Origin: an uncultured Lachnospiraceae bacterium
GTDB taxonomy: Bacteria; Bacillota; Clostridia; Lachnospirales; Lachnospiraceae
NCBI GenBank assembly: GCA_946534785.1
Contig: CAMNCY010000004.1
Span: 1 to 39,765, forward strand
DNA length: 39,765 nucleotides
Direction of reading: 5' to 3'
In this document: positions 21,367 through 32,632 of the stretch, piece by piece
How the letters are laid out: each line of letters opens with the position of its first letter
How positions within the stretch are numbered: the first letter of the stretch is position 1
Program-made: the position numbers and the translations under genes
Notes under the pieces: model-generated
Seen by the model: only the letters and a program-made list of their open reading frames with translations
The model's database searches: none
Told to the model about the DNA's origin: nothing

Positions 21367-22524
21367 ATGAAGAGGTGGAACAAAGATTTTCTGGATAAGC
21401 CATGGGCAGCCTATACGGTGGCGGCATGTTCGGCAGTGCTGCTGTTCCAGATCCTTGAGCATCTGGGGCTTTTCGTTCACGGAGTGAGTGTCTTCTTCGG
21501 ATATCTGGCGCCGATCCTCTATGGGATCGCCCTTGCGTACCTTTTGCTTCCGGTCAGTCATTTCTTCGAAAATACGGTTTTTTCAAAGGTCCGTTCCGAC
21601 AAATGGAAGAAACGCCTCGGGATCCTGCTTACTTATGTGGTCCTGATCCTGGTCTTTGTGATCCTGACTGCAGCCATCATTCCGCAGATCGTCAGAAGTA
21701 TCGTGACCTTTGTCACAAGCCTCGGAGAATATGAGAACTCCCTGAACGAGATCCTGGAGCAGCTCAATGCCCAGGCGCTTGCCCTGAATATCGACATCAC
21801 CGAAATAACGCAGTTCGGTTCCGATATCCTGAGCAGGGTCGTCAGAGTCATCTCTTCCAATATGGGGAAGGTGATCGGCACTTCCTACAGCATCGGCCGC
21901 GGCGTCTTCAATGTTGTCGTCAGTTTCATTCTGGCCGTGTATTTCATGGCGGATGCCAGCCGGCTGATCGGCGGCGTGAAGCGTTTCATGAGCCTGTTCC
22001 TGAAGGAGAAGACCCGTAAATGGCTGGGAAGCTTTGAGAGGCGCTGTAATGCGATCCTTCTGCGTTATATAGGCGGCGACCTTCTGGACGGCCTGATCGT
22101 CGGCGTCATCAACAGCATTTTCATGCTGATCATGCGGATGCCGTATGTGATCCTGGTATCGGTCATCGTGGGCGTGACCAATCTGGCCCCGACCTTCGGT
22201 CCCATCGCAGGCGGCGCTATCGGCGCACTGATCCTTCTTTTCTCCGATCCCTGGGATGCCCTGACCTTTATTATTTTTACCGTCATCCTGCAGACAGTTG
22301 ACGGATATGTGATCAAGCCCCGGCTCTTCGGAAGCTCTCTGGGTGTATCCAGTGTCATGATCCTGATCTCGATCATCCTCGGCGGCGGGATCTTCGGCGT
22401 TGCCGGCATCCTGTTCGCCATTCCCTTCGCGGCGATCGTGCATTATATCTATCATGGCGCGGTAGATTCTCTGGAAAAAAGAAGAAGGAGCGGAAAACCG
22501 CTCCCTCCTGGTGTCAGTAATTGA
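21367..22524 (+). CDS. AI-2E family transporter (PerM/UPF0118)
   Basis: Eight-TM pattern; IGGDLLDGLIVGVINSIFMLIMRMPYVILVSVIVGVTNLAPTFGPIAGGAIGALILLFSDPWDAL and GYVIKPRLFGSSLGVSSVMILISIILGG typical of family. Confidence 0.92.
   Translation: MKRWNKDFLDKPWAAYTVAACSAVLLFQILEHLGLFVHGVSVFFGYLAPILYGIALAYLLLPVSHFFENTVFSKVRSDKWKKRLGILLTYVVLILVFVILTAAIIPQIVRSIVTFVTSLGEYENSLNEILEQLNAQALALNIDITEITQFGSDILSRVVRVISSNMGKVIGTSYSIGRGVFNVVVSFILAVYFMADASRLIGGVKRFMSLFLKEKTRKWLGSFERRCNAILLRYIGGDLLDGLIVGVINSIFMLIMRMPYVILVSVIVGVTNLAPTFGPIAGGAIGALILLFSDPWDALTFIIFTVILQTVDGYVIKPRLFGSSLGVSSVMILISIILGGGIFGVAGILFAIPFAAIVHYIYHGAVDSLEKRRRSGKPLPPGVSN
22476..22504 (-). terminator. minus-strand intrinsic terminator inside the 3' end of the AI-2E-family CDS
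   Basis: GGAGCGG-AAAA-CCGCTCC hairpin (22487-22504); read on minus strand it is followed by TTCTTCTTTTTTCC. Confidence 0.7.
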
Positions 22525-23437
22525 ATTTTCCCTCGTTCTTTTCTTCGAGGGCTTTTATGGCGTGATATGTATATTCGGCAAAGGGGACCGGGATGCCGGC
22601 CTCCTTTGCTTTTTTCATGAGAACACCCGTGAACATGTCGATCTCGGTCCTGCGTCCCGCGTCCAGGTCCTGGAGCGTGGAGAAGCGGACAGTGGGCGGC
22701 CAGGAGTCCTTTGTATTGGAGAGCGGGTGCAGATGGATGCCGTTTGCCTGTGCAACGGCAGACACCTCACGGTACAGCGCGTCTCTTATGAAGGCGACGT
22801 GCTCACTGTCAAAATAGGAGCGGAAGGGTGTTGCGAGAACGGCCTGGGGCAGGTTATAGCAGATGTTGAGCGCATATTTGTCCCACTGATCGGTCAGGAT
22901 GTCTTCCATGATATGGCCGTGCAGGCCGGCACAGGCAAGAAGGTCCCGGATCGCCAGGATCCGTTCCGACGGCTCCGAAGATCCCTTTTCTCCGTAGAAG
23001 ACGCCCGGCGTCCTGTCGGGATCGAAGACGATATTGCCGTCCTTCCTTGCGGAAACGATGCGCATAAGAGAGTATACGATATGGGAGGGATCAATGACGG
23101 ACCCGATGATCTCTTCGCTGTCGATGCCGTTCATCAGGCTCATGACGATCGTATCCGGTCCCGTGGCCTTTTGGATCGCGGGCAGTACGGAGAAAAGTCC
23201 GCTGTATTTGGTCGCGATCAGAAGAAGGTCCACGCCCCGCTCCGACGCTTCCGCAGGATCCAGCACGCAGGGGCGGTACTGCTTCCCGTTGATCCATACG
23301 CCGTCCCGTAACAGCCGCTCTTTTCTTTCCCCTTCCGCGATCAGGAAGAAGTCCGTACCTTCAAGATCCGTAAGCCCGTAAATAAAATAGCCGCCGACAG
23401 CGCCGGCGCCGATCAGTGCCGTATGCTTGATTTCCAT
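22514..23437 (-). CDS. ketopantoate reductase family (ApbA/PanE-like) protein
   Basis: TALIGAGAVGGYFIYGL Rossmann start, MSLMNGIDSEEII, LLACAGLHGHIMEDILTDQWDKYALNI. Confidence 0.87.
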   Translation of the reverse strand: MEIKHTALIGAGAVGGYFIYGLTDLEGTDFFLIAEGERKERLLRDGVWINGKQYRPCVLDPAEASERGVDLLLIATKYSGLFSVLPAIQKATGPDTIVMSLMNGIDSEEIIGSVIDPSHIVYSLMRIVSARKDGNIVFDPDRTPGVFYGEKGSSEPSERILAIRDLLACAGLHGHIMEDILTDQWDKYALNICYNLPQAVLATPFRSYFDSEHVAFIRDALYREVSAVAQANGIHLHPLSNTKDSWPPTVRFSTLQDLDAGRRTEIDMFTGVLMKKAKEAGIPVPFAEYTYHAIKALEEKNEGKFNY

Positions 23438-23557
23438 ATGATTTTACATTCCTTTATGATAATATTATCGTGATAAAAAAGGCTCAGACAGACACAGCCG
23501 TCTGTTTCATTATATCAGGATGCGCGGATGGCGCAAACAGGCGGCACAGGAGGCAGA

Positions 23558-25351
23558 ATGCATAAATTATTGGAATATCCGTTTGACAGCGGTCTGATCA
23601 GAAGAAAACAGAAGTCTATCAGAAGAGAGCTCCTTTCCGCGGAAGGACTCCTGGAGAAGAAGGTGGCGGTCCTCGGCGGTTCCACGACCCATGATATCAT
23701 TACGATGCTGGAACTGTTCCTTCTGGGGAACGGCATAAAGCCCTCTTTTTACGAATCGGAATACGGCCAGTTCTGGCAGGATGCGATGTTCGACAACGAA
23801 GAGCTGAAGGAATTCGCGCCGGACATTATTTATATCCATACCTCGAACCGCAATATCCTTTCCTGGCCCCAGCCCGCCTCCTCCGAGGAGGAGATAAACG
23901 GCATGCTGGAGGCGGAGTTCAGCCGCTTTAAGGCAATGTGGGAGAAGCTTTCTGCTGTTTACCGGTGCCCCATTATCCAGAACAATTTCGAATATCCCTT
24001 CTTCCGCCTTATGGGCAACAAGGATGCGGCGGATGTGCACGGACGGGTCAATTACGTGAGCCGCCTGAACATGAAATTCTATGAATACGCACAGAACGCA
24101 GATCAGTTCTATATCAACGACATCAATTACCAGTCGGCGGATTACGGCCTCGCCAGATGGTCGGATCCTTTCTTCTGGCATATGTATAAATATTCCCTGT
24201 GCCTGGATGCGATCCCGTATCTTTCCTTCAACGTGGCGAATATCATCAAGTCGGTCTACGGAAAGAACAAGAAGGCCCTTGCCCTGGACCTGGATAATAC
24301 CCTCTGGGGCGGCGTCGTGGGAGATGACGGGCCTGAGAACTTAGAGCTCGGCCAGGAGACCTCCATGGGACAGGTCTATACCGAGTTCCAGCAGTACCTG
24401 AAGGAGCTTTCGAAGAGGGGGATCCTTCTCAATATCATTTCCAAGAATGATGAGGAGAATGCCCTTGCCGGACTGGCGCATCCGCAGATGGTCCTGAAGA
24501 AGGATGATTTTATCAGTATCAAGGCCAACTGGGACCCCAAGAGCGTCAACCTCGTCAATATGGCAAAAGAGCTGTCGCTCCTTCCGGAGTCCTTTGTCTT
24601 CGCGGATGACAATCCGGCGGAGCGGGAGATCATCCGGCAGCAGGTCCCGCAGGCGGCCGTGCCCGAGATGGACAAGGTGGAGCATTATATTTACGCGATC
24701 GACAGGAGCGGATATTTCGAGACGACCACGGTCTCGAAGGACGATCTTCGCAGAAGCGCCATGTACAAAGAGAACATGGAACGCATGCAGCTGGAGAATT
24801 CCTTTGCCGATTACGGGGAGTATCTGAAGTCCCTGGAGATGAAGGCCGAGATCGGGAGCTTTATCCCGCTTTACATGGCAAGGATCGCGCAGCTTACGAA
24901 CAAGAGCAATCAGTTCAACCTGACGACGCGCCGGTATACCCAGGAGGAGATCGAGAAAGCGGCGGCAGATTCGAACTTTATCACATTATATGGTAAACTG
25001 ATTGACAGATTCGGTGACAACGGTGTAGTCAGCGTGGCCATCGGAGAGAAAAGAGGAGACGAGCTGGATATTATCCTGTGGCTGATGAGCTGCCGTGTCC
25101 TCAAGAGGGACATGGAGTTCGCCATGATGGACGAGCTCGCGGCAAGAGCGGAAAAAGAGGGGATCAAAAAGATCCTCGGCTACTATTATCCGACGGCCAA
25201 GAACGGCATGGTCCGCGATTTCTACGACAGACAGGGCTTTACGAAGATCTCGGAGGACGAAGCGGGAAATACCGTATGGGCGCTGGATATCAGCAAAGGG
25301 TACACTAAAAAGAATCATGTGATTGAAATCGGGGAGGTTGAAACAGAATGA
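23558..25351 (+). CDS. FkbH-like HAD-IIIC family protein (SGNH-like N-term + HAD + GNAT-like C-term)
   Basis: ALALDLDNTLWGGVVGDDG (DxDxT HAD motif), LTNKSNQFNLTTRRYT, LMSCRVLKRDMEFAMMDEL; SD CAGGAGG before ATG 23558. Confidence 0.92.
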   Translation: MHKLLEYPFDSGLIRRKQKSIRRELLSAEGLLEKKVAVLGGSTTHDIITMLELFLLGNGIKPSFYESEYGQFWQDAMFDNEELKEFAPDIIYIHTSNRNILSWPQPASSEEEINGMLEAEFSRFKAMWEKLSAVYRCPIIQNNFEYPFFRLMGNKDAADVHGRVNYVSRLNMKFYEYAQNADQFYINDINYQSADYGLARWSDPFFWHMYKYSLCLDAIPYLSFNVANIIKSVYGKNKKALALDLDNTLWGGVVGDDGPENLELGQETSMGQVYTEFQQYLKELSKRGILLNIISKNDEENALAGLAHPQMVLKKDDFISIKANWDPKSVNLVNMAKELSLLPESFVFADDNPAEREIIRQQVPQAAVPEMDKVEHYIYAIDRSGYFETTTVSKDDLRRSAMYKENMERMQLENSFADYGEYLKSLEMKAEIGSFIPLYMARIAQLTNKSNQFNLTTRRYTQEEIEKAAADSNFITLYGKLIDRFGDNGVVSVAIGEKRGDELDIILWLMSCRVLKRDMEFAMMDELAARAEKEGIKKILGYYYPTAKNGMVRDFYDRQGFTKISEDEAGNTVWALDISKGYTKKNHVIEIGEVETE

Positions 25352-25584
25352 GAGAAGAGATCTATGAGAGACTGACAGAAGTGTTTCATGATGTTTTTGA
25401 TGATGATTCGATCGAGATCGGTGATGCTACGACAGCTGCGGATATTGACGGATGGGATTCCCTTACGCATATCTCTCTCCTGTCTGCGGTAGAAGACGAA
25501 TTTGATATTACCTTTGACATGAAGGCGGTCCAGGGACTTAAGAACGTCGGTGCCATGGTGGATCTGATCGAGGATATGATATGA
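25348..25584 (+). CDS. acyl carrier protein
   Basis: 78 aa; GWDSLTHISLLSAVEDEFDI phosphopantetheine-Ser motif; 4-nt overlap with both neighbours. Confidence 0.93.
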   Translation: MREEIYERLTEVFHDVFDDDSIEIGDATTAADIDGWDSLTHISLLSAVEDEFDITFDMKAVQGLKNVGAMVDLIEDMI

Positions 25585-27107
25585 TGTCGATCACGTCGCT
25601 TCAGTTTGTGGTCCTTTTCCTGGTTTCCGTCGGGATCTACTATCTGATTCCCGGGCGGCTTCAATGGTATGCGCTGATCGCGTTCAGCGCATACTTTTTC
25701 TGTGTTTCCTCAAAACCGGTGACAGGACTGTACCTGGCAGCGTCCATCCTTATTACAACGGCGGTCAGCACCGTCATGAAGAAAAACAGGGAAGGCCGGG
25801 GCGCGAAGGCAGCACTCATCGCAGGGATCCTGGCAAATCTCGGGATCCTGGCACTTCTGAAGTACAGCGGCTTTTTCGTATCCAACCTGAATGCTGCAGG
25901 AAGGCTCCTTGGCGGACCGCAGATCCCCATGCCTTCTTTTGCATCGCCTCTTGGCGTCAGCTTTTATACCTTCAGCATCGTGGGCTACCTTCTGGACTGC
26001 TACTGGGGGATCACGGAGCCGGAAACGAACCTTCTGAAGAATGCGCTTTTTGCAGGATACTATCCCCTTCTTACCAGCGGCCCCATCGTACGGCACAAGG
26101 ACCTGAAGGACCAGCTGTATGCCGCCCACCGTTTTGACTGGGAGCGCGTTACCTTCGGCCTCCAGAGGATCTTCTGGGGAATCTTCAAGAAGCTGGTCAT
26201 TTCCGCAAGGGCCGGCGTGATCGTGGATACGGTCTATTCGGACACGGAAGCCTATCCCGGCCTCTATATCTGGGTCGCGGCGCTTCTTTTCATGGTCCAG
26301 CTGTATACGGATTTTTCCGGCTGCATGGATATCATCATCGGCGCATCGGAATGCTACGGGATCATCCTGCCGGAGAATTTCCGGACCCCCTTCTTTTCCA
26401 GGTCGGTCCAGGAATACTGGCAGAGATGGCATATCACCCTGGGCCTGTGGATGAAGGATTACCTGATGTATCCCATCCTCCGCAGCAGGGCTTTCCGGAA
26501 TATGGGAAAATCCCTGAAAAAGAGCCTTGGCAAAAAAGCTGCCCGCCAGATCCCGACCTATCTGGGCATGCTGATCCTGTGGATCGTCATCGGTCTGTGG
26601 CACGGCGGGGCCTGGAAATATATTCTGGGAGAAGGCATGTGGTTCTTTGCCTGCATCGTTCTGGGACAGCTCATGGAGCCGGTATTTAAGAAATGGATCG
26701 CCGCTCTTCATATCAATACGGAGACCTTTTCCTGGCATCTGTTCCAGTCGGCCCGGGTCTATCTTCTGGTATGTATAGGCAACCTTTTCTTCCGCCTGAA
26801 TTCCTTCCGGGAGGCACTGAAGGCAATGCGCCTTTCCGTCAGCCGCTTCAACCCGTGGATCCTTTTCGACGGTTCCCTGGACCAGCTGGGGCTTTCCGAT
26901 AAGAATGTGCGCGTTCTTTTTGCCGGGATCCTGGTCCTGCTTGTCGTATCGGCACTGCAGGAGAAGGAGTCCGTAAGGAAGATGATCGCCCGGCAGAACC
27001 TGGTTTTCCGCTGGATTCTGTATGTCGGCCTTATCTGGCTCATCGTCGTTTTCGGCATGTACGGCCCGGGATACGATGCGGCATCGTTCATCTATCAGCA
27101 GTTCTGA
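25581..27107 (+). CDS. MBOAT family membrane-bound O-acyltransferase (AlgI/DltB-like)
   Basis: VQEYWQRWHITLGLWMKDYLMYPIL and VIGLWHGGAWKYILGEGMWFF with conserved catalytic-type His. Confidence 0.95.
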   Translation: MMSITSLQFVVLFLVSVGIYYLIPGRLQWYALIAFSAYFFCVSSKPVTGLYLAASILITTAVSTVMKKNREGRGAKAALIAGILANLGILALLKYSGFFVSNLNAAGRLLGGPQIPMPSFASPLGVSFYTFSIVGYLLDCYWGITEPETNLLKNALFAGYYPLLTSGPIVRHKDLKDQLYAAHRFDWERVTFGLQRIFWGIFKKLVISARAGVIVDTVYSDTEAYPGLYIWVAALLFMVQLYTDFSGCMDIIIGASECYGIILPENFRTPFFSRSVQEYWQRWHITLGLWMKDYLMYPILRSRAFRNMGKSLKKSLGKKAARQIPTYLGMLILWIVIGLWHGGAWKYILGEGMWFFACIVLGQLMEPVFKKWIAALHINTETFSWHLFQSARVYLLVCIGNLFFRLNSFREALKAMRLSVSRFNPWILFDGSLDQLGLSDKNVRVLFAGILVLLVVSALQEKESVRKMIARQNLVFRWILYVGLIWLIVVFGMYGPGYDAASFIYQQF

Positions 27108-27116
27108 GGAGGCAGT

Positions 27117-28283
27117 ATGAGAAAAATCATTTCAGTCATTGCATTCCTTGCCGTGCTTTCGGGGACTATGGGAAAGACCTTTGATGTTCTGTGGGAGCGC
27201 GACGACGGTTTTTCCAGGGAGGTATATGAGCAGTTCTATGATCTGCCCAGGAACTCGGTGGACGCTGTCGTGATCGGACCGAGTGCCGCAAGAGAGTACT
27301 ATTTTGCAGGGGAGGCCTTCCATCATAACGGCGTAGTCTCCTATAACCTGAGCACCTCCGGACAGCCTTTTTCCGCGATCCTTCCCCTTATCAAAGAGGT
27401 GGAGAAGACACAGGATCCGTCCGTGTATCTGATCGAGTTCCGGGAACTGGAAGAGGATTCGGTCAATCTCGGGGATGTGCGGAAGATCACCGACAATATG
27501 AAGTGGTCCCGCAACAGGATCGATACGATCAATTCCATGCTGGACCAGTACGATGCCACCAGCGGAGAGGCGCCTGTCGAGAGGAAAGATTATTACACGA
27601 GTTTCGGTGTCTACCATAACCGCTGGGAGGACGTGAATGCCGCGGATTTCGGAGAATCGGAGCAGTGGATGGGATTCGGCATCTATAACAGCATCATTAC
27701 GATGACGCCCGAAGACCTGAAGCCTTTTGATGAGTACTATGATATTGATCCTTACTTACTGGGAGAACTGGACCGTCTGATCAGCTATACGGATACGCTG
27801 GATGCAAAAATCGTCTTCGTGCTGATGCCGGCCTTCTTCCACTCGGATTCGAGGGGGCTCCTGAATTGTGCCATGCAGCAACTGCAGGCGAGGGGGCAGG
27901 AGGTTCTCTTCCTGAATCCTCATATGGGGGACATCGGACTTTCGATGGACGTGGATTTTCGTGAAGAAGAGCATGTCAACACCTATGGCAGCATAAAAGT
28001 CACGAATTTCCTTGCCGATTATCTGCAGCAGCAGTACGGACTGCCCGACCGCAGGGGCGGGAACGGGCTTGAGAAATGGACGAATGCTTATGAGGGATTC
28101 CGTAAGGCGATCCTGAAGAGAACGAGCGTCCTGGCGGCCTATGAGGAACTGGGCACGCTTCTGGATACCTGCCGTTTCGAATCGACAGGGGAGCGGACCT
28201 TTGACGTATACGATGAAAACGGAGCGCTGCTGGATCATGCAGCCTTTGATGAGAACGGAAAGAGGATCGAACAGGTTCAATGA
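27117..28283 (+). CDS. membrane-anchored SGNH-like protein (DltD/AlgJ-type partner of MBOAT)
   Basis: N-terminal hydrophobic anchor; VVIGPSAAREY (block I Ser), STSGQPFSAILPLIKEV, EEEHVNTYGSIKVTNFLADYL (block V His-like); position directly after MBOAT. Confidence 0.7.
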   Translation: MRKIISVIAFLAVLSGTMGKTFDVLWERDDGFSREVYEQFYDLPRNSVDAVVIGPSAAREYYFAGEAFHHNGVVSYNLSTSGQPFSAILPLIKEVEKTQDPSVYLIEFRELEEDSVNLGDVRKITDNMKWSRNRIDTINSMLDQYDATSGEAPVERKDYYTSFGVYHNRWEDVNAADFGESEQWMGFGIYNSIITMTPEDLKPFDEYYDIDPYLLGELDRLISYTDTLDAKIVFVLMPAFFHSDSRGLLNCAMQQLQARGQEVLFLNPHMGDIGLSMDVDFREEEHVNTYGSIKVTNFLADYLQQQYGLPDRRGGNGLEKWTNAYEGFRKAILKRTSVLAAYEELGTLLDTCRFESTGERTFDVYDENGALLDHAAFDENGKRIEQVQ

Positions 28284-29884
28284 ATTTGGAAAGACCGGTA
28301 CAGTGGATCATAAAAGCATATTTTACCCTGACGATCCTTCTTGCGGTCCCGCTGGCGGTCTGCAGTTTCCTGACAAGGGTCGTTTTCCGGCAGCGAGTCG
28401 AGAACGATCTGTTTGACTTCCTTCCGGAGAATATCCCGATCCTTCTTGCCTGCAGCGTGCTCTTTCTGGCGATCGCGGCAGTGTATGTGAAGAAGACGGA
28501 AGAAGGCGCCGGTGCGTCCTCCGGCAGGGTCACGGATACGGGATACCTGAAGACGGATCTTCTGTTCCGGATCCTTATGGTCTATGCCCTGGGAGTCTCC
28601 CTGTTCATCATCTTTTCGGTCAGGGGACTTGCCACCAATGACGCCAGGATGCTGAACGATATCATCAACGCGTTCATGCAGGGAGATTACTCCTCCATGG
28701 GGCAGTACGGGTATCTGAGCATTTATCCCTTCCAGATCAGTTATGTCATGATCGGGCAGCTTTTGTATATCCTTTTCGGACCGGACAATTTCCTCGTCTA
28801 CCAGCTGATCAACGTCGTCTGCATCCTCCTTACCATGTGGCTTTTATACGAGATCACCTGGGAAATGTTCGGAAATGAGAGAATCTGCGGCATCATGAGC
28901 CTCCTCGGCTTCGGTGCCATGTTCTTCTATGTGTATTCGACCTATGTCTATAACGACATCTGGAGCTTCCTGCCCCAGACGGCCGCGTTCTGGCTGGAGA
29001 TCCGCTACCTGAAGAAGCCGAAGGCACTGACGGCCGTCCTTGCGGCGGTGTGCATCGCGCTGGCGATCCTTCTGAAATCGAACTGCTATATCGCTCTCAT
29101 CGCCATGGCGGCCATGCTGGTCTTCTCCCCGATCCGGAACAGGGAAGGGGGAAGGGCGCTTGTCCGGAACCTTGTCATAGCGCTTCTTATGTTCGTCCTT
29201 TCGTCGGCGCTTTCTGCGGGCGTCATGCAGGTATATGTGAATAAAGCCGGTCTTCCCAAGGCGCCGGACGGCGTTCCCGCCATGGCGTATTTTGCCATGG
29301 GCATGCAGGAGATGGAGGGAAAATACGGCTGGTACGACGGCTACAACGCCGGAATCTATACACAGAATGAGTGCGACGGCGCGAAGGCTTCCGAGGCCGC
29401 AAAGGAAGAGATCCGGGAAAGGATCCGGTTCTTTGGCGGGAACCGGAAATACTTTGTGAAATTCTACCTGGGAAAATATCTTTCCCAGTGGGCAGACGAT
29501 ACCTTTATCAGTCTCCGGGAGCTGGAGCTTACGGGCCGCCATGTGGAGAACCAGCCGAAGACGGCGGACTGGCTGATCTTCGGAACGGGGTATCATATCA
29601 TGGACGGGATCATGAATGTGTTCCATTTCCTGGTGCTTCTGGGGACCCTTCTCTACGGAGGCCGAAAGATCTTCCGGGATAAGCTCTCCGGTATTTCGGA
29701 TGCGGAAGCTCTGGTCATCATGTTCATCTTCGGAGGCATGCTGTTCCACCAGCTCTGGGAGGCGTCCAGCCGCTATGTGATGCGGTACTTTCTGTTCCTT
29801 CTTCCGGCTGCCGCCTTCGGTATTTATACGGCTGCCCGGAAGCTTGCGGAATACGGGAAGCATGTCCGGAGCACGGATTCATAG
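28280..29884 (+). CDS. polytopic membrane protein, GT-C (GT39/PMT-like) glycosyltransferase candidate
   Basis: Many TM segments; ATNDARMLNDIINAFMQGDYSSMGQYGYLSIYPFQ resembles first extracytoplasmic loop of GT-C enzymes. Confidence 0.68.
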   Translation: MNLERPVQWIIKAYFTLTILLAVPLAVCSFLTRVVFRQRVENDLFDFLPENIPILLACSVLFLAIAAVYVKKTEEGAGASSGRVTDTGYLKTDLLFRILMVYALGVSLFIIFSVRGLATNDARMLNDIINAFMQGDYSSMGQYGYLSIYPFQISYVMIGQLLYILFGPDNFLVYQLINVVCILLTMWLLYEITWEMFGNERICGIMSLLGFGAMFFYVYSTYVYNDIWSFLPQTAAFWLEIRYLKKPKALTAVLAAVCIALAILLKSNCYIALIAMAAMLVFSPIRNREGGRALVRNLVIALLMFVLSSALSAGVMQVYVNKAGLPKAPDGVPAMAYFAMGMQEMEGKYGWYDGYNAGIYTQNECDGAKASEAAKEEIRERIRFFGGNRKYFVKFYLGKYLSQWADDTFISLRELELTGRHVENQPKTADWLIFGTGYHIMDGIMNVFHFLVLLGTLLYGGRKIFRDKLSGISDAEALVIMFIFGGMLFHQLWEASSRYVMRYFLFLLPAAAFGIYTAARKLAEYGKHVRSTDS

Positions 29885-29895
29885 AGAGGCTTTGC

Positions 29896-31506
29896 ATGAC
29901 ATCTTTATATGACAGAATTACGGATAAGACGAAAATTAAGGCCGGAGGCGGGGCGTCCCCCGCAGCGGCCTTTTTATCCCGTCTTTTACAGAAGGTGACC
30001 GTTCGCAGGACGGCCGTCTTCCTGACGGTGTTATACATTCTCAACCTCATCCCGCTCCTTGTACTGGGACATTTCGACTATGCCTCCGCGGACGATTTCT
30101 CGGAAGGCTCTTACTGTCATGCCGTCTGGACGGCGACCCACAGTATCACGGGCGTTTTCGCAGAAGCGGTCCGGGCAGCGGTCCGCTCCTGGTTCAACTG
30201 GATGGGCTATTACGGCTATATGTTCATGGGCTCCATCACGCCGGTCGTCTTCGGGACCCGCGTGTACCGCATCACACCCTGGATCATGCTGGGCATCCTG
30301 ACCTTCTCCACGGTCTATCTTCTGCATGTGCTTTTTGTGCGCCTTGGCGGCGCAAGAAAAGAACTCGCCCTGTGCGTTTCCATGATCACGCTCCTTTTGA
30401 GTGTGGAATGCATGCCGGGCGCCAATGAGCTCATCTTCTGGTACGGCGGTGCAGTCAATTACACACTGTTCTTCGCCTTCTCCGAGATCCTGACCGGACT
30501 GGTGATCAGCCTCCATCTGGACGTCCTTTCCGCGGCCGGGGAGGGACCTCTGGCAGGCAGGGCGACCCGCAGCCGGACGGGACTTGTGATCCGCACGGTC
30601 CTGATTTCCTTCTTTGCCTTTTTTACAGCCGGCGGGAATTATCTCTCCGCCCTTTCCTGCTGTCTGGTCCTTCTTCTGATCGTATTCCTGGCAGGTATCC
30701 GGGGAGAACTTTCAAAGGACCGTCTTCTTCCGGTTCCGGTCATCGTATTCTGCGCGGGCTTTGTCCTGAGCATCGCAGCGCCCGGGAACTCCGTACGTGC
30801 TGCCATGCTGAACGGCTTTGGCCCTGTTAAGACGATCTTTATTTCTCTTCATTATTTCTTTGAGGTCTGTATCGGAGAGATGACGGGCTGGGCACTCCTG
30901 ATGGGCTTTGTCCTTCTGATTCCGATCCTGTGGAAGATGACGGGAGAAATGGATTTTGATTTTCCCTGCCCCCTCATTGTTCTTCTGTTTCTGGGAGGCC
31001 TGACTGCCGCGAATTTCGCACCGCCTCTTTATGCGGAGGGAAATGTGGAAGCGGGCAGGCTCCGTGGGACCCTTTTCCTTCAGTATGTGATCCTGGCGGT
31101 CCTTGCGCTGTTCTATGCTGTCGGCTGGGTCCGGAAATACCTGGGCCGGGAAAAAGGGAGCAAAGAGTTTTCACCGGCTGCTTCTGCGGGACTTCTGGCA
31201 GCCTTCCTCGTTACGGTCTTTGCCGCTGCCATGAGCATCAAGGCGGAGCCGTATTACTTCACCACATCCGCAGCCGCTTTCGATCTTATGAACGGGAGCG
31301 CTGCCGCATATGCGGCGGAATGGGAAGAAAGACTGAAGGTCCTGGAGGATGAGAGCATAAAAAATCCAGCCCTCCCGGCCTTTGTGAACCGTCCGTACCT
31401 TCTGTACTATTCGGACGGGACTAAGGACCCGCAGGACTGGAACAATGTTTCCATGCAGCGATTCTATAACAAGGAATCCGTCATCGTCATCCACGATAGG
31501 AATTGA
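29896..31506 (+). CDS. DUF6056-like polytopic membrane protein
   Basis: FDYASADDFSEGSYCHAVWTATHSITGVFAEAVRAAVRSWFNWMGYYGYMFM and about 10-12 hydrophobic segments. Confidence 0.7.
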   Translation: MTSLYDRITDKTKIKAGGGASPAAAFLSRLLQKVTVRRTAVFLTVLYILNLIPLLVLGHFDYASADDFSEGSYCHAVWTATHSITGVFAEAVRAAVRSWFNWMGYYGYMFMGSITPVVFGTRVYRITPWIMLGILTFSTVYLLHVLFVRLGGARKELALCVSMITLLLSVECMPGANELIFWYGGAVNYTLFFAFSEILTGLVISLHLDVLSAAGEGPLAGRATRSRTGLVIRTVLISFFAFFTAGGNYLSALSCCLVLLLIVFLAGIRGELSKDRLLPVPVIVFCAGFVLSIAAPGNSVRAAMLNGFGPVKTIFISLHYFFEVCIGEMTGWALLMGFVLLIPILWKMTGEMDFDFPCPLIVLLFLGGLTAANFAPPLYAEGNVEAGRLRGTLFLQYVILAVLALFYAVGWVRKYLGREKGSKEFSPAASAGLLAAFLVTVFAAAMSIKAEPYYFTTSAAAFDLMNGSAAAYAAEWEERLKVLEDESIKNPALPAFVNRPYLLYYSDGTKDPQDWNNVSMQRFYNKESVIVIHDRN

Positions 31507-32584
31507 CGGCGTCGATGACCATGGAGACTTCCTCATCGGTCATTTCCGGGAAGAGCGGGAGCGTTGCGCAGTGCGCGGCAAGCTCTTCCGCGTTCGGGCA
31601 GTCGCCCTTCTGATAGCCAAGATCCTTATAGGCCTCCTGCAGGTGGCAGGGGACGGGATAATGGCGGTTGCATTCGATGTCCTTTTCCTTCATGTATGCC
31701 AGGAAGTGTTCCGGATCCGGCACCTGGACCTCGTACATGTGATAGACGTGTTTGGTATTGGCGGGATGCTTCTGGAGACGGAAGAGGGGATTGGTGATCT
31801 CCCGGTCATATCTTGTTCCGATCTCGATCCTTCTTTTCGTCCACTCATCCAGGTATTTGAGGCTGACGGACATGACGGCGCCCTGAATGCCTTCCAGACG
31901 CATGTTGTAGCCCACGACCTCATGATAGTACCGGATGCGGCAGCCCTGGTTCTTGTATACATTGACCTTGTCGATATAGGCGGGGTCGTTGCTGGTAACG
32001 CTTCCGCCCTCTCCGAAGGAATACAGGTTCTTGCCGGGATAGAAGCTGAAGCAGCCGATATCGCCGAGACCTCCGACGCGAACGCCTTCATACTCCGCGG
32101 CCGCTGCCTGGGCGCAGTCTTCCACCACGTACAGTCCGTGACGGTCCGCAATCTCTTTCACAGCGCCGAAATCAAAGGGCTGGCCGTACAGATGTACGCC
32201 GATGATGGCTTTGGTACGGTCCGTGATCTTCTCTTCGATCTTTGCGGGATCGATCTCCCAGGTATCTGCCGTGCAGTCGACGAAAACGGGAGTCGCACCG
32301 CTGTAGGTGACGCCCCAGGCCGTTGCGATATAGGTGTTGGCGGGAACGATGACTTCGTCCCCTTCCCCGATCCCGAGGCAGAGCATGGCAAGGTGGAGCG
32401 CGCTGGTCCCGTTATTCACGCCGGAAGCAGCGGCAACACCCAGATACTGTGCAAATTCCTTATCGAAACGGTCCGCATAGGGCCCGCCGGAAAAAGCGGT
32501 CTCCTCACAGCACCGCGTGATGGCATCCAGGTATTCCTGTCTGTGTTTTGCAAAATCTCTTGTAAGGTCAATTCTTTTGAGCAT
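31487..32584 (-). CDS. DegT/DnrJ/EryC1/StrS family aminotransferase (nucleotide-sugar, QdtB/FdtB-like)
   Basis: NNGTSALHLAMLCLGIGEGDEVIVPANTYIATAW; VVEDCAQAAAAEYEG; CFSFYPGKNLYSFGEGGSVTSND (PLP Lys). Confidence 0.94.
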   Translation of the reverse strand: MLKRIDLTRDFAKHRQEYLDAITRCCEETAFSGGPYADRFDKEFAQYLGVAAASGVNNGTSALHLAMLCLGIGEGDEVIVPANTYIATAWGVTYSGATPVFVDCTADTWEIDPAKIEEKITDRTKAIIGVHLYGQPFDFGAVKEIADRHGLYVVEDCAQAAAAEYEGVRVGGLGDIGCFSFYPGKNLYSFGEGGSVTSNDPAYIDKVNVYKNQGCRIRYYHEVVGYNMRLEGIQGAVMSVSLKYLDEWTKRRIEIGTRYDREITNPLFRLQKHPANTKHVYHMYEVQVPDPEHFLAYMKEKDIECNRHYPVPCHLQEAYKDLGYQKGDCPNAEELAAHCATLPLFPEMTDEEVSMVIDAVNSYRG

Positions 32585-32632
32585 GATTCCTCCTGAGCGC
32601 CCGGCTGTTTTCCGCCTCTTCGGCGGTCTGCG

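Follow-up and report, generated by a model that had tools for sequence, protein, structure and literature searches.

Organization of the Locus

The window analyzed here is a 39,765-nucleotide stretch of DNA from an uncultured Lachnospiraceae bacterium, and its source genome is a fragmented metagenome-assembled genome (MAG) of 230 contigs that is 88% complete. Four genes on one strand, encoding an FkbH protein, an acyl carrier protein (ACP), an MBOAT and an SGNH protein, follow each other with spacings of -4, -4, and +9 nt by inspection of the open reading frames (Table 1). The tight coupling described in an initial annotation of the same DNA was thus found in place, and its assignments (FkbH-like, Ser-containing ACP, MBOAT with YWQRWH and LWHGG motifs, SGNH-like) agree with the families and intact residues given below. 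The open reading frame of the FkbH gene spans 23528–25351, however homologs start at the motif MxxLEYPFD, which makes 23558 a likelier start than 23528.

Table 1. Positions of the four-gene cassette, its sub-gene features and the coupled downstream genes.
Feature	Position	Strand	Basis
Predicted FkbH-type HAD-IIIC glyceryl transferase/phosphatase (loader)	23558..25351	+	TIGR01686, FkbH_N, PDB 3slr homolog
Stand-alone acyl carrier protein	25348..25584	+	PF00550; phosphopantetheine serine S38
MBOAT O-acyltransferase, DltB-like	25581..27107	+	PF03062; H284, H341; fold model
55-residue Lys/Arg-rich segment between both MBOAT catalytic motifs	26433..26597	+	Corresponds to DltB helix HC region
C-terminal FIYQQF (F503–F508) of MBOAT, FxYxxF acyl-shuttle motif	27087..27104	+	Putative acyl-accepting Y505 at 27093–27095
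Membrane-anchored SGNH acyltransferase (predicted)	27117..28283	+	Conserved residues; SGNH fold of model
GT-C membrane glycosyltransferase (PMT_2)	28280..29884	+	PF13231 35.8 bits; 4-nt overlap with SGNH stop
DUF6056 multi-spanning membrane protein	29896..31506	+	PF19528 30.3 bits; 11 nt downstream of GT-C gene

Gene coupling extends past the SGNH gene into two membrane genes, for a GT-C glycosyltransferase and a DUF6056 protein. The former is probably the glycan-side partner of the cassette, and DUF6056 also flanks the FkbH-ACP-MBOAT genes of locus L058 and of Eisenbergiella tayi (L110). This onward coupling went unmentioned in the initial annotation, as did the shuttle motif, the loader exchange and the tailoring-enzyme variants described in the following sections. 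Further along the window, two open reading frames were called at 31445–32596, where the minus-strand frame is the real one and encodes a DegT aminotransferase.

FkbH and its Carrier Protein

The Cys of the SCRxL motif in FkbH proteins holds the glyceryl group, and glyceryl loading reportedly has its basis in the FkbH biochemistry worked out with OzmB. The FkbH of the window, the only one in the assembled genome, scores 281.6 bits against TIGR01686 (cut-off 146.65) and 51.5 bits against FkbH_N in profile searches, and has PDB 3slr as a homolog (E 3.5e-50). Numbered from the ATG at 23528, D254 and D256 lie in the DLDNTLWGG motif (about 24287–24295) and the conserved C522 in MSCRVLKR (25091–25093); none of the three varies among 14 aligned relatives. 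The SCR motif is present, under the pattern used, in 108 of 111 FkbH proteins, a set that also covers PKS-type members. The ACP, one of three carrier proteins in the genome, matches PF00550 with 28.1 bits (cut-off 20.8) and carries its phosphopantetheine serine S38 in a WDSL motif (25459–25461), with DS38 unchanged in 13 aligned relatives. Catalytic residues missing on alignment had been named beforehand as a reason to abandon the proposed role; those of FkbH and ACP are intact. Because of the biochemistry known for the FkbH family (PMC7489565), the acyl group placed on the ACP is most likely glyceryl.

The MBOAT, its Shuttle Motif, and the SGNH Partner

The third gene product matches PF03062 with 41.9 bits (cut-off 27), and its closest PDB relatives by sequence are the DltB structures 6bug and 8jem (E about 1e-18). 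Structure prediction, one of the checks suggested in the initial annotation, gave an MBOAT model of pLDDT 91.6 whose top fold matches are again DltB 6bug (E 4.9e-12) and 8jem, with both catalytic histidines present, H284 in YWQRWH and H341 in LWHGG. At the C-terminus, F503, Y505, and F508 are identical across 12 aligned MBOATs and form an FxYxxF motif. In the peptidoglycan system, PatA auto-acetylates the Tyr of its own C-terminal FxYxxF and PatB accepts the group from an acetylated peptide (Anderson et al., 2025, PMC12148441); in the Dlt system the motif is located on DltX, and fused-shuttle MBOATs are stated to work without carrier proteins (PMC12148441). The window combines a fused shuttle with a carrier protein, and no gene for a separate DltX microprotein lies between the coupled genes. 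We considered the motif as proof of carrier use and rejected it: an FxYxxF-like ending is found on every full-length MBOAT of the genome, except for a contig-edge copy on contig C54, so that the motif alone cannot tell carrier from CoA donors. The argument for a carrier is instead drawn from neighborhood, clade and segment length.

The fourth protein gave no sequence-family match at cut-off in the profile search. Its AlphaFold model (pLDDT 85) matches SGNH folds with probability 1.00 but low TM scores, including DltD 6pfx (E 1.1e-4) and PatB 7tjb (E 3.4e-4). An N-terminal helix (residues 2–25) precedes the nucleophile S56 of a GPS motif (27282–27284) and H286 of an HVN motif (27972–27974), and G54, S56, H286, and N288 (GxS56, H286xN288) are unvarying in an alignment of 26 relatives; the acidic residue of the triad is Glu in the window and often Asp in relatives.

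Apparent Exchange of Loaders within an MBOAT Clade

MBOATs from 40 genomes of the family were listed by PF03062 score, and 20 low-scoring proteins, the kind to which the MBOAT of the window belongs, and 20 others were taken blind to their neighbors, leaving out low-scoring MBOATs already known as FkbH-linked. A DltA-like ligase and/or a DltC-like carrier lay within about 5 kb of 15 of the 20 low-scoring MBOATs vs. 1 of the 20 high-scoring ones (Fisher p 1e-5, from counts read off the neighborhood map). A tree of 106 MBOATs, built by quick search with SH-aLRT support and no bootstrap, places the MBOAT of the window in a clade (SH-aLRT 99) made up of 30 FkbH-linked, 16 ligase/DltC-linked and four loader-less sequences, with true DltB as a separate clade and AlgX-linked MBOATs mostly elsewhere.

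The segment between the RWH and WHG motifs points in the same direction. It measures 55 residues in the window and 45 in all nine true DltB proteins, exceeds 50 in 16/17 ligase/DltC-linked and 47/68 FkbH-linked MBOATs, and stays at or below 42 in 15/15 AlgX-linked ones (about 38 residues), where the 42/50 cut is post hoc, set after the lengths had been seen, a first cut (≥60 aa) having given no separation. Motifs were readable in these 68 FkbH-linked MBOATs, of which the remaining 21 belong to the short type resembling AlgI/AlgX. DltC docks on helix HC of DltB (PMC11035591), and it is the region of this helix that is enlarged in the window, as in carrier-linked MBOATs. Neighborhoods, clade and segment length together suggest that FkbH and ACP form an alternative means of loading an MBOAT that works with a carrier; with either FkbH plus ACP or a DltA-like ligase plus a DltC-like carrier serving one clade, FkbH would replace DltA, judging from these sequence comparisons.

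An ordinary Dlt operon was considered and rejected. In the assembled genome (88% complete), the best match to the DltA model TIGR01734 reaches 249 of the required 560 bits and lies on contig C54, none of the six scored matches to the canonical DltB model TIGR04091 passes its cut-off, and the MBOAT of the window, at 139.5 bits under the 375-bit cut-off, stands outside both the DltB equivalog and the DltB clade. The one further candidate loader in the genome that comes with its own carrier lies on C54.

Comparison with Known Systems

The Dlt pathway is the route of teichoic acid D-alanylation. The cassette resembles it (DltA, DltB, DltC, DltD, DltX) in its cytoplasmic loader, stand-alone carrier, MBOAT, SGNH protein and FxYxxF acyl-Tyr shuttle, as well as in the solved structure closest to its MBOAT, however the Dlt loader is an AMP-forming ligase whereas FkbH would use 1,3-bisphosphoglycerate, and the shuttle of Dlt sits on separate DltX whereas that of the window is fused to the MBOAT. 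The fused arrangement with a separate SGNH protein is that of PatA/PatB of peptidoglycan and AlgI/AlgJ/AlgX of alginate, which O-acetylate from acetyl-CoA and, unlike the window, have no dedicated carrier or loader. In the tetronate, methoxymalonyl and aeruginosin/suomilide branches of FkbH, glyceryl enters a polyketide/NRPS product, whereas the putative acceptor next to the FkbH of the window is a membrane acyltransferase; the suomilide cluster does hold both FkbH and an MBOAT, in unrelated steps (PMC13122637). Also close are systems of DltA-like ligase, DltC-like carrier, MBOAT (FxYxxF) and SGNH protein in relatives (L199–L202, L204–L212, L214, L216) and on contig C54 of the source genome, which share the MBOAT clade, the kind of SGNH protein and the enlarged segment, and differ in their loader, an adenylating enzyme sometimes accompanied by a PLP decarboxylase-like protein. 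Descriptions of these DltA-like ligase systems, or of the FkbH-ACP-MBOAT-SGNH module, were not found in the open-access literature searched.

Distribution

Among FkbH loci with enough flank, a same-strand MBOAT lies within 6 kb at 57/76, far above the chance expectation of about 1.4 loci (from the family average of 1.29 MBOAT per Mb) to 5.8 loci (from the MBOAT density of the source genome), although the loci are related, so that they are not independent trials and binomial p values overrate the association. The co-occurrence analysis proposed in the initial annotation thus came out in its favor. Of the named loci, 39/53 have an MBOAT within 6 kb of FkbH and 50/53 have the ACP; for the relative loci with enough flank the figures are 18/23 and 20/23. 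The 19 of 76 loci without MBOAT within 6 kb, together with the short-type MBOATs described above, indicate that the association, though strong, has exceptions. Examples of FkbH-ACP pairs without a nearby MBOAT are L093, beside phosphofructokinase- and dnaX-like genes, and L238, with a WcbI-type acetyltransferase.

Most named hosts come from gut and rumen and belong to the Lachnospiraceae, the Oscillospiraceae or other Clostridia; further hosts are MAGs labeled Lentisphaerae, Kiritimatiellae, Treponema and others, labels that can be wrong. Cultured examples include Butyrivibrio sp. XPD2002 (L157), which has the exact four-gene order, E. tayi and Lachnospiraceae 28-4 (L086). The minimal four-gene set FkbH-ACP-MBOAT-SGNH is found repeatedly (e.g., L157, L119, and L162), and some relatives hold MaoC plus SDR, two transketolase halves or a Glyoxalase_4 (VOC) protein inside the cassette. 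The FkbH is also conserved on pSymB of the plant symbiont Sinorhizobium meliloti, as seen in 39 plasmid records of Sinorhizobium, those of 1021, 2011, and Rm41 among them. On pSymB of strain BL225C the order is VOC, MBOAT (ending in FLYQGF), SGNH-like, ACP and FkbH, near Capsule_synth and ABC export genes, and the annotation of strain RCAM1750 lists the same MBOAT, ACP, and HAD-IIIC genes. A plasmid of Rhodobacteraceae SC52 carries the order ACP-FkbH-MBOAT(FIYFNF)-SGNH-like-VOC, and the inter-motif segment of the MBOAT is 51 residues long in both S. meliloti and Rhodobacteraceae.

Proposed Mechanism and Alternative Explanations

We interpret the cassette as an MBOAT-SGNH module for surface acylation that depends on a carrier protein and has FkbH in place of DltA, and give this reading a probability of roughly 70%. 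FkbH had already been placed in DltA's position by the initial annotation, a view now backed by the shuttle, the clade, the segment, the distant recurrence and an assembled genome in which PKS and canonical DltA and DltB were not detected. By analogy with the family, FkbH would take 1,3-bisphosphoglycerate from glycolysis, hold the acyl group on its conserved Cys, strip the remaining phosphate and charge the phosphopantetheine arm of the ACP with glyceryl, steps for which the residues are present. Following DltB/DltC, the enlarged inter-motif segment may be where glyceryl-ACP docks on the cytoplasmic face of the MBOAT, and by the example of DltB/DltC and PatA the MBOAT would move the glyceryl to the extracellular side, onto Tyr505 in its C-terminal FIYQQF. 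From the shuttle peptide the acyl group could then pass to Ser56 of the SGNH protein, as with PatB/DltD, and this anchored protein would esterify an extracellular glycan, perhaps built with the co-transcribed GT-C/DUF6056 proteins.

Enzymes encoded elsewhere might instead tailor the glyceryl, in which case the same machinery would deliver another hydroxyacyl, such as lactyl, a longer group or the opposite enantiomer of glyceryl. Relatives do encode MaoC with SDR, transketolase halves or VOC in their cassettes, and dehydration and reduction of glyceryl would yield lactyl, however the cassette of the window has none of these genes and four-gene versions recur without them, so for the window we consider this unlikely. 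For the relatives themselves, the extra acyl-ACP enzymes imply that plain glyceryl may not be what is delivered in every case, other acyl groups being possible where MaoC, SDR, transketolase or VOC genes are present.

A second alternative regards the MBOAT/SGNH pair as an ordinary acetyl-CoA O-acetyltransferase, with FkbH-ACP next door by chance and serving a small polyketide/NRPS product or intracellular acyl transfer. Acyl-CoA is the donor in most described MBOAT-SGNH pairs (PMC12148441), and some FkbH-ACP pairs do stand away from any MBOAT; nevertheless the tight gene overlaps, the recurrence far above chance, the carrier-linked clade with its enlarged docking segment and the failure to find a PKS (one weak ketoacyl-synthase fragment of 25.9 bits in the assembled genome, 88% complete) speak against it, and we judge it distinctly improbable. 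Supply of polyketide extenders, methoxymalonyl-type or other, is a role often described for FkbH (PMC7489565); for the FkbH-ACP pair of the window it was rejected and is largely refuted by the missing partners: as the initial annotation had seen for dehydrogenases and PKS, no FkbD/FkbK/FkbG-like genes, adjacent dehydrogenases or methyltransferase accompany the cassette, and the single 3-hydroxyacyl-CoA dehydrogenase of the genome is on another contig, leaving only a very small chance within the 12% of the genome that is missing.

Beyond this locus, the surface acylation reading can be extended to the whole shuttle-fused MBOAT clade as an export platform for carrier-bound acyls whose loaders swap: ligase plus DltC for aminoacyl, FkbH plus ACP for glyceryl, and FkbH plus ACP with MaoC/SDR, transketolase or VOC for further hydroxyacyls, with the window as the simplest glyceryl version. 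We regard this generalization as evenly balanced between right and wrong.

Significance

Acyl decoration of envelope glycans governs charge, enzyme access and immune recognition, and native gellan is known to carry glyceryl. If our reading is true, the cassette offers a first candidate route by which enzymes place glyceryl esters on bacterial glycans, and it breaks the rule that fused-shuttle MBOATs work without a carrier protein (PMC12148441). The 1,3-bisphosphoglycerate route would couple glycolysis to the chemistry of the envelope with no need for ATP-dependent activation, a glycolytic intermediate being written directly on the cell surface. Glyceryl surface chemistry would then also be present in Sinorhizobium, near capsule genes, and the acyl donors of the envelope would be widened beyond acetyl-CoA and D-alanine.

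MBOAT genes and a second carrier system in the window's genome

The 2.17-Mb metagenome-assembled genome that holds the window carries 12 MBOAT genes at 12 places, a density per Mb about four times the family average, and a motif resembling the FxYxxF acyl-shuttle motif ends all of those whose C terminus was read. A second carrier system besides the window cassette lies on another contig, C54, of the same genome. Its DltA-like ligase scores under the DltA cut-off, and its MBOAT, which belongs to the same clade as the window MBOAT, is divergently oriented from the genes for the ligase, the PLP protein and the DltC-like carrier.

Variation among FkbH cassettes

Enlarged loci in the window's genus combine one FkbH and one ACP with two to three MBOAT/SGNH pairs of differing lineages. 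At ten further loci an AlgI/AlgX-like MBOAT-SGNH pair lies immediately upstream of FkbH-ACP, which was apparently recruited separately there. One locus (L093) has FkbH-ACP without an MBOAT nearby, followed by genes that, judged by eye, are phosphofructokinase-, dnaX- and recR-like. In Sinorhizobium meliloti RCAM1750, the SGNH-like gene located between MBOAT and ACP is annotated as a TonB-dependent receptor, probably a misannotation. The ketopantoate-reductase family gene beside the window FkbH did not recur as a cassette neighbour in gene maps of relatives' FkbH loci.

Locations of the carrier system, neighbouring gene and variant cassettes
Feature	Location	Remarks
Second carrier system	C54 (L042:7620-12313)	DltA-like ligase, diaminopimelate-decarboxylase-like PLP protein, DltC-like carrier
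Ketopantoate-reductase family gene	window 22514-23437	minus strand, divergent from FkbH
SGNH-like gene, S. meliloti	L241:2386-3615	
Enlarged multi-MBOAT/SGNH loci	L066, L069-L075, L080	window's genus
AlgI/AlgX-like pair with FkbH-ACP	L124, L125, L130, L131, L135, L142, L146, L148, L149, L156	
FkbH-ACP, no MBOAT nearby	L093:10010-15687	
Transketolase/MaoC-type cassettes	L057:3868-7037, L083, L096, L099, L116, L132, L141	
Glyoxalase_4 (VOC) genes	L060:7138-7515, L086:12073-12483, L237:4561-5028, L239:11909-12337	

Other FkbH cassettes contain two transketolase halves and MaoC, in some cases with an SDR, adjoining ACP and MBOAT, which suggests that the acyl group is elaborated while on the carrier. 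A Glyoxalase_4 (VOC) gene, on the opposite strand in some loci, is a repeated cassette member in Clostridia and Alphaproteobacteria, and its product may perhaps epimerise the acyl-ACP.
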